A stretch of DNA of 49,540 nt from an uncultured Flavobacteriaceae bacterium (GTDB taxonomy: Bacteria; Bacteroidota; Bacteroidia; Flavobacteriales; Flavobacteriaceae). How positions within the stretch are numbered: the first letter of the stretch is position 1; every line of letters starts with the position of its first letter. The stretch covers positions 1 through 49,540 of the forward strand of contig CAJQKN010000042.1 of NCBI GenBank assembly GCA_905478905.1. Direction: 5' to 3'. Shown in pieces: positions 39,166-39,412 of this stretch. Both the position numbers and the translations under genes were made by a program. Below the pieces are notes generated by a model, which worked only from the letters and a program-made list of their open reading frames with translations, was not told the DNA's origin and ran no database searches.

Positions 39166-39168
39166 CTT

Positions 39169-39198
39169 TTCAATACTTGACTTTTTCTGCTAAATTTG
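39169..39198 (+). promoter_or_regulatory. Candidate promoter (TTC-N19-TAAATTTG) for the 39.2-39.4 kb small unit
   Basis: TAAATTTG at 39191-39198 matches TAnnTTTG exactly; -33 is imperfect (TTC 39169-39171). Confidence 0.45.
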
Positions 39199-39245
39199 TA
39201 TTGAGTATTTCGCACTGTGACAACAGTGATGTTTAATCTAATGTA

Positions 39246-39323
39246 GAAAGGAGGTGTCTTATGTCTTATGAACAACATTTGGGGAGTAACGGACAAAAGA
39301 TGCCTTTTAACCAGGCATTTTAA
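39246..39323 (+). CDS. Candidate 20-aa small ORF with 12-nt extended Shine-Dalgarno: MSYEQHLGSNGQKMPFNQAF
   Basis: AGAAAGGAGGTG (39246-39257) followed by TCTT and ATG at 39261; stop TAA ends at 39323. Below the length cut-off of the ORF track. Confidence 0.5.
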   Translation, partial: ERRCLMSYEQHLGSNGQKMPFNQAF

Positions 39324-39346
39324 TCCTACTCCTTATCTAATTAGAT

Positions 39347-39375
39347 AAAAGCAGGCCGATGGGCCTGCTTTTTTT
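39347..39375 (+). terminator. Strong intrinsic terminator
   Basis: GCAGGCC (39351-39357)-GATG-GGCCTGC (39362-39368) with flanking AAAA and a 7-T tract. Confidence 0.85.
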
Positions 39376-39412
39376 GCCTTTTCGCGTAATTTTAACTCAT
39401 AATCTTGTTGCA

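Follow-up and report, generated by a model that had tools for sequence, protein, structure and literature searches.

In most Flavobacteriales exactly one gene, rpsU, carries an extended Shine-Dalgarno (SD) sequence, and SD control was concluded to be limited to this gene (McNutt et al., 2023; PMC9976891). In Flavobacterium johnsoniae, mutation or depletion of bS21 led to increased translation of strong-SD reporters, and the autoregulation of rpsU by bS21-lacking ribosomes in Flavobacteriales involves a very long SD for nearly the whole 16S rRNA tail, in a group where SDs are otherwise avoided (PMC9976891). The element described here resembles rpsU in this very long SD and in its SD-avoiding hosts. 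Unlike rpsU, whose leader is short in these genomes, it encodes no ribosomal protein but a 20-residue peptide, and it is a stand-alone structured RNA with an internal mimic of the 16S tail. We infer that an unannotated ORF of 20 codons would evade a survey of that type.

The Downstream-peptide/yfr6 RNAs of marine cyanobacteria also combine a structured RNA with a short conserved ORF in marine bacteria; there, the structure comprises the 5'UTR only and no SD for the 16S tail has been described (Weinberg et al., 2010; PMC2864571). Searches of Rfam at gathering and at relaxed thresholds returned no family for our element, and weak matches to snoU109 and L20_leader were discarded as chance hits driven by the terminator. 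No description of such a gene was found in the literature, as covered by open-licence papers. Type I toxin mRNAs combine a short ORF with long-range pairing and an SD that an internal anti-SD can mask. The element resembles them in all three respects and differs in its polar peptide and in an SD fitted to the whole 16S tail.

The element lies in the window, i.e., the whole stretch of 49,540 nucleotides that was analysed, which belongs to a genome of 1.7 Mb in 164 contigs. Comparative evidence, obtained from carriers that are nearly all metagenome-assembled genomes (MAGs) or single-cell genomes, gives good support to its interpretation as an undescribed conserved gene, a short structured mRNA with a small ORF (sORF) and an SD fitted to the whole 16S tail.

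Layout, distribution and genomic neighbourhood

The initial annotation had proposed at this site a self-contained, undescribed small-RNA/small-protein unit with an extended SD. This proposal was borne out, given that the unit is conserved and independent of its neighbours, its stems covary and its SD matches the 16S tail over 14 nucleotides. The -7 element, the hairpin at 39213, the ATG at 39261 with its 20-codon ORF, the hairpin at 39300, the palindrome and the terminator were all present in the sequence. Two features had been overlooked, the invariant loop of the terminator and the mimic of the 16S tail within the RNA; this mimic, in the 3'UTR, is new here. The features are the following:

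39191-39198, + strand: promoter -7 element TAAATTTG of Bacteroidota type (from sequence; TAnnTTTG at near-constant distance upstream of H1 in 46/57 homologues)
39213-39228, + strand: 5' hairpin H1, CACUGU-GACA-ACAGUG, with invariant loop GACA (three pairs changed on both sides, 57 homologues)
39244-39257, + strand: extended SD UAGAAAGGAGGUGU, complement of the 16S rRNA 3' tail ACACCUCCUUUCUA (duplex energy; 14/14 positions in 43/57)
39261-39323, + strand: sORF of 20 codons, MSYEQHLGSNGQKMPFNQAF, ATG at 39261 (ATG, length, in-frame indels, column-shuffle test)
39280-39286, + strand: 5' strand of helix P3, an SD-like stretch within the ORF whose partner is the 3'UTR mimic at 39329-39335 (4/7 pairs changed on both sides)
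39300-39318, + strand: hairpin H3 over the final codons, variable among clades (predicted in individual folds; the region aligns poorly)
39329-39339, + strand: 16S-tail mimic CTCCTTATCTA in the 3'UTR (homologue alignment, pair counts)
39333-39348: palindrome TTATCTAATTAGATAA (from sequence; not a conserved part)
39347-39375, + strand: intrinsic terminator, invariant loop GAUG (39358-39361) closed by C-G (six covarying pairs)

One position required correction. The 12-nt purine run AGAAAGGAGGTG is present, at 39245-39256 instead of 39246-39257; for any one 12-mer, about 0.006 occurrences are expected in the window (2 x 49540 / 4^12). The perfect palindrome exists as described and is confined to the nearest relatives; the sequence conserved at this place is TCCTTATCTA. 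A tiny upstream ORF (ATG TTT AAT CTA ATG TAG) was dropped since its ATG alternates with AAG among homologues. The predicted fold of the 178-nt RNA was far more stable than those of shuffled sequences (z of -5.2), with 0/200 shuffles as good.

Conservation had been posed as a requirement for the unit, and it extends well beyond the strain of origin. By blastn, 17 of 100 genomes (the own genome counted) matched the element, and blastn together with a later covariance model placed it in 16 of 18 same-genus relatives. Eight further genera, whose genomes are all small (1.3-2.2 Mb), also gave matches to the covariance model at E < 1e-6. When GTDB representatives were scanned with the DNA pattern TGACAAYRGN{17,18}AGARAGGAGGT, 76 loci were obtained, 69 of them genuine and all from Flavobacteriia-type MAGs or single-cell genomes, including MAGs labelled Crocinitomicaceae or Cryomorphaceae by their depositors. 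The other seven (Desulfovibrio, two Lachnospiraceae, a planctomycete, Geobacter, Paenibacillus and Propioniciclava) were rejected as chance matches without terminator and short ORF, as were three matches on viral contigs that had no ATG, terminator or promoter. Order- and phylum-wide model searches of a sample of genomes gave no convincing carrier outside the family.

Compared with four nearest relatives, the element was 93-97% identical, while third codon positions of the adjacent antiporter gene were 39-55% and the flanks 45-68% identical in the same four genomes, which indicates strong selection on the whole unit. The element is dispensable, since it was missing from two near-complete genomes of the same genus (G009 and G012; loci L160 and L162) that kept rpsU with its extended SD and in which the antiporter is followed by a different gene on the opposite strand. 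Given that MAGs and single-cell genomes make up nearly the whole set, some absences may be assembly gaps. Most carriers have a single stable locus per genome. Two MAGs contained two differing element sequences each (L086/L131 and L137/L146), mostly at contig ends, reflecting either a strain mixture or two copies. A divergent clade (L094, L109, L121, L123, L129 and L149), whose MAGs are labelled either Crocinitomicaceae/Cryomorphaceae or Flavobacteriales, has the element elsewhere in the genome, flanked by an exchanger gene transcribed divergently and by a convergent gene, with a different peptide (MSIEKNSKELIGLLVPFVHLF type) and a closer mimic of the 16S tail; TAnnTTTG is absent from its usual place in this clade.

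In most carriers ribE-antiporter stands upstream, and the antiporter was missing in L011, L084, L102 and others that retained the element. Downstream, the window and many relatives have an oxygenase gene on the same strand, whose place is taken in many carriers by unrelated or convergent genes. As the neighbours vary on both sides while the element stays, it is an independent unit, probably transcribed on its own, and does not serve as a leader for the oxygenase gene.

Shine-Dalgarno sequence, RNA helices and the 16S-tail mimic

The 3' end of 16S rRNA, read from same-genus genomes and not from the own assembly, is ...GGAACACCTCCTTTCTAGAG. That this tail would complement the purine run had been predicted, and UAGAAAGGAGGUGU indeed pairs with ACACCUCCUUUCUA of the same-genus 16S rRNA over 14 nucleotides with an energy of -22.5 kcal/mol. 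SDs of rpsU type were defined by an SD-ASD energy below -13 kcal/mol with 9-13 consecutive pairs, and the value for the SD of rpsU in the own genome was -18.3 kcal/mol, weaker than that of the element. In 43 of 57 dereplicated homologues all 14 positions were retained, and in 57/57 the pairing with the tail reached -17.0 kcal/mol or stronger. With a mean identity of 0.96 among the 57 homologues, the SD is the best conserved part of the element. The gap between GGAGG and ATG was 6 nt in 85 of 94 homologues and 5 nt in the other nine. Translation of the element through SD-ASD pairing is probable.

When 11 relatives were scanned for GARAGGAGGTN{4,9}ATG, 22 matches emerged: 10 rpsU sites (eight translated as bS21 and two further ones with an identical motif in genome G013), eight copies of the element, and four without a common product. 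Hence rpsU and the element were the only recurrent genes with an extended SD in these genomes. In G013, a second rpsU-like sequence with identical extended SD (G013:C2:811607; L034, L035 and L187) lies near a contig end and is spread over two frames with a stop, due to either an assembly duplication or a pseudogene. The own genome has a second GAAAGGAGGT..ATG, which was discarded because it lies within a dehydrogenase-like coding sequence.

Covariation of the stems, suggested as a check, was found for H1, P3 and the terminator in the 57 distinct homologues. In the model composed of H1, P1, P3 and terminator, 93.3% of the cells were paired, against 40-52% in slid controls, and 14 pairs had changes on both sides. 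The covariation score was 0.305 vs. 0.174 for shuffles (0/500 reached 0.305), and slid versions did not exceed 0.10; relatedness among the sequences is not taken out by the shuffles, but it is retained in the slid controls. Within H1, CUGU-GACA-ACAG was near-constant and the outer pairs covaried; H1 may be a protein-binding site. In the terminator 99.8% of the cells were paired, and the loop GAUG with its closing C-G pair was identical in 57/57 homologues despite the covariation of the stem, which may reflect a stable tetraloop or a contact with protein or RNA. A pseudoknot between the H1 loop GACA and the UGUC after the SD was rejected, given that the latter reads UAUC in L018 and UGC in L011 with the loop unchanged.

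Helix P3 joins the SD-like stretch of the ORF (UUAAGGA, CUAAGGAG) to the 3'UTR mimic. Double changes affected four of its seven pairs, with compensatory combinations such as AAGAAG/CUUCUU (L121), AAAGAG/CUCUUU (L109) and AAGAAU/AUUCUU (L049). In P1, the UCUA of the mimic pairs with UAGA at 39244-39247. Wobble pairs of P3 and the terminator are G-U on the plus strand and would be C-A on the other, which identifies the plus-strand RNA as the structured one. As counterpart of 16S CACCUCCUUUCUA, most carriers have UCCUUAUCUA and the divergent MSI clade has CACUCCUUUCUAA; the mimic core is TCCTTATCTA in most homologues and CACTCCTTTCTAA in the divergent clade.

The CUCCUUA of the mimic, which pairs with the ORF in P3, can alternatively pair with the SD. 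The SD:mimic helix was pairable in 91% of the cells, and predicted ensembles divided the mimic between SD and ORF, with medians of 0.43 and 0.43. For the SD, the free 16S tail is a stronger partner (-22.5 kcal/mol) than the mimic (-16.7 kcal/mol). Pair counts in the homologues gave wobble changes and no double changes for SD:mimic, a consequence of the fact that the SD never varies, and this pairing may be a by-product of P3. The mimic starts 1-8 nt past the stop codon in 54/57 homologues; judging from ribosome size, a terminating ribosome should cover it.

Coding evidence for the 20-codon ORF

Homologues of the ORF start with ATG in 94 of 95 cases, the exception being L092 (near 7290), which has AGG instead (TTAGGTCTT) with the remainder intact, either a sequencing error or a loss of the ORF. 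The length was 19-21 codons in 87/94, and the stops were TAA (79), TAG (10) and TGA (5). Within the ORF, indel lengths are divisible by three; in the leader, the spacer and the 3'UTR other length differences occur too. Stops occurred in the +1 frame of 54/57 and in the +2 frame of 57/57 sequences, and the entropy was highest at codon position 3 and lowest at position 2. In a column-shuffle coding test, the observed amino-acid similarity was matched in 0/3000 shuffles (11/3000 without stop penalty). M1, Y3, L7, Q12, I/V14, P15 and L/F20 were the best-conserved residues, and the C-terminal half of the ORF was among the least conserved parts of the element (mean identity of 0.44). The ORF is unrelated to bS21, and rpsU is located elsewhere.

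Codon conservation and dN/dS had been named as checks of this ORF; frame, length and column shuffles spoke for coding, but pN/pS in close pairs (0.75) lay within the range of the shuffled null (0.85 +/- 0.15). The latter result implies that the peptide sequence is weakly constrained beyond the RNA; a constraint on the RNA is superimposed on the coding signal.

Proposed mechanism and alternative explanations

We favour, with moderate confidence, the reading of the element as an mRNA for a micropeptide, equipped with a translational switch and licensed by ribosomes whose anti-SD is exposed. This structured, monocistronic mRNA, about 170 nt long, would be transcribed from its own promoter to its own terminator, and its product would be a polar, conserved micropeptide some 20 residues in length. 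The start site would be accessed via up to 14 nt of pairing with the 16S 3' tail. In Bacteroidia this tail sits in a bS21/bS18/bS6 pocket, so the start site should serve mainly free-tail ribosomes, e.g., those lacking bS21, as with rpsU. With the mimic on the SD-like stretch of the ORF the SD would be open, with the mimic on the SD it would be closed, and a translating or terminating ribosome would melt or cover the mimic. Licensing by free-tail ribosomes and a switch by the mimic are both plausible. Points that weigh against this reading are the pN/pS of close pairs, the SD:mimic helix free of double changes, the absence of the element from G009 and G012, and a dependence on bS21 that is extrapolated from rpsU of another genus.

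The RNA itself might instead be the product, acting as a decoy or timer for 30S subunits: its full-tail SD would catch those with a free tail (bS21-lacking or immature 30S), and its ORF would mainly load and release ribosomes. Such a role would agree with an SD more conserved than any other part, a C-terminal ORF half among the least conserved, a weakly constrained peptide in close pairs and conserved long helices, but we consider it rather unlikely, because the reading frame, ORF length, stops and residue skeleton (Y3, L7, Q12, P15) are retained and a pure decoy needs none of them. The presence of the same rare SD in rpsU and in the element, and a possible duplex between the mimic and the SD of rpsU (in the own genome, about -10.7 kcal/mol), would fit a trans-acting sRNA that tunes bS21 synthesis. 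This is improbable, however, as the mimic pairs more strongly with its own SD in cis (-16.7 kcal/mol), rpsU is bound far better by the 16S tail (-18.3 kcal/mol), and changes in the mimic track the ORF strand in cis.

Two further explanations are very unlikely. The short ORF, maskable SD and long-range 5'-3' pairing would suit a type I toxin mRNA, which we regard as highly improbable: the peptides are mostly polar (mean GRAVY of -0.41, range -1.45 to 0.76) rather than hydrophobic and membrane-spanning, a scan of the minus strand of the element revealed no conserved ORF, and most carriers have one stable locus. That the element could be a cis-acting leader-peptide attenuator of the oxygenase gene, which lies downstream in the same orientation in the window and in many relatives, is scarcely credible even though ORF and terminator look attenuator-like. 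Synteny contradicts it: no regulated gene is conserved on the same strand downstream across carriers, and the terminator is equally conserved in carriers where an unrelated or a convergent gene comes next.

A more specific and tentative reading is that the element acts as a sensor of ribosome composition, in which a stand-alone RNA with a whole-tail SD and a tail mimic is opened only by free-tail ribosomes, and the peptide or the RNA acts on ribosome supply. If so, specialized bS21-lacking ribosomes would for the first time have a target that is not a ribosomal protein gene. Flavobacteriia mostly do without SD pairing, rpsU being the typical single exception in published surveys, and a second such gene, conserved, unannotated and with a still longer SD, points to another target of bS21-lacking ribosomes. 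The element adds a conserved micropeptide and structured RNA family to widespread ocean bacteria, as a gene of streamlined marine Flavobacteriia that bS21-lacking ribosomes may switch on.
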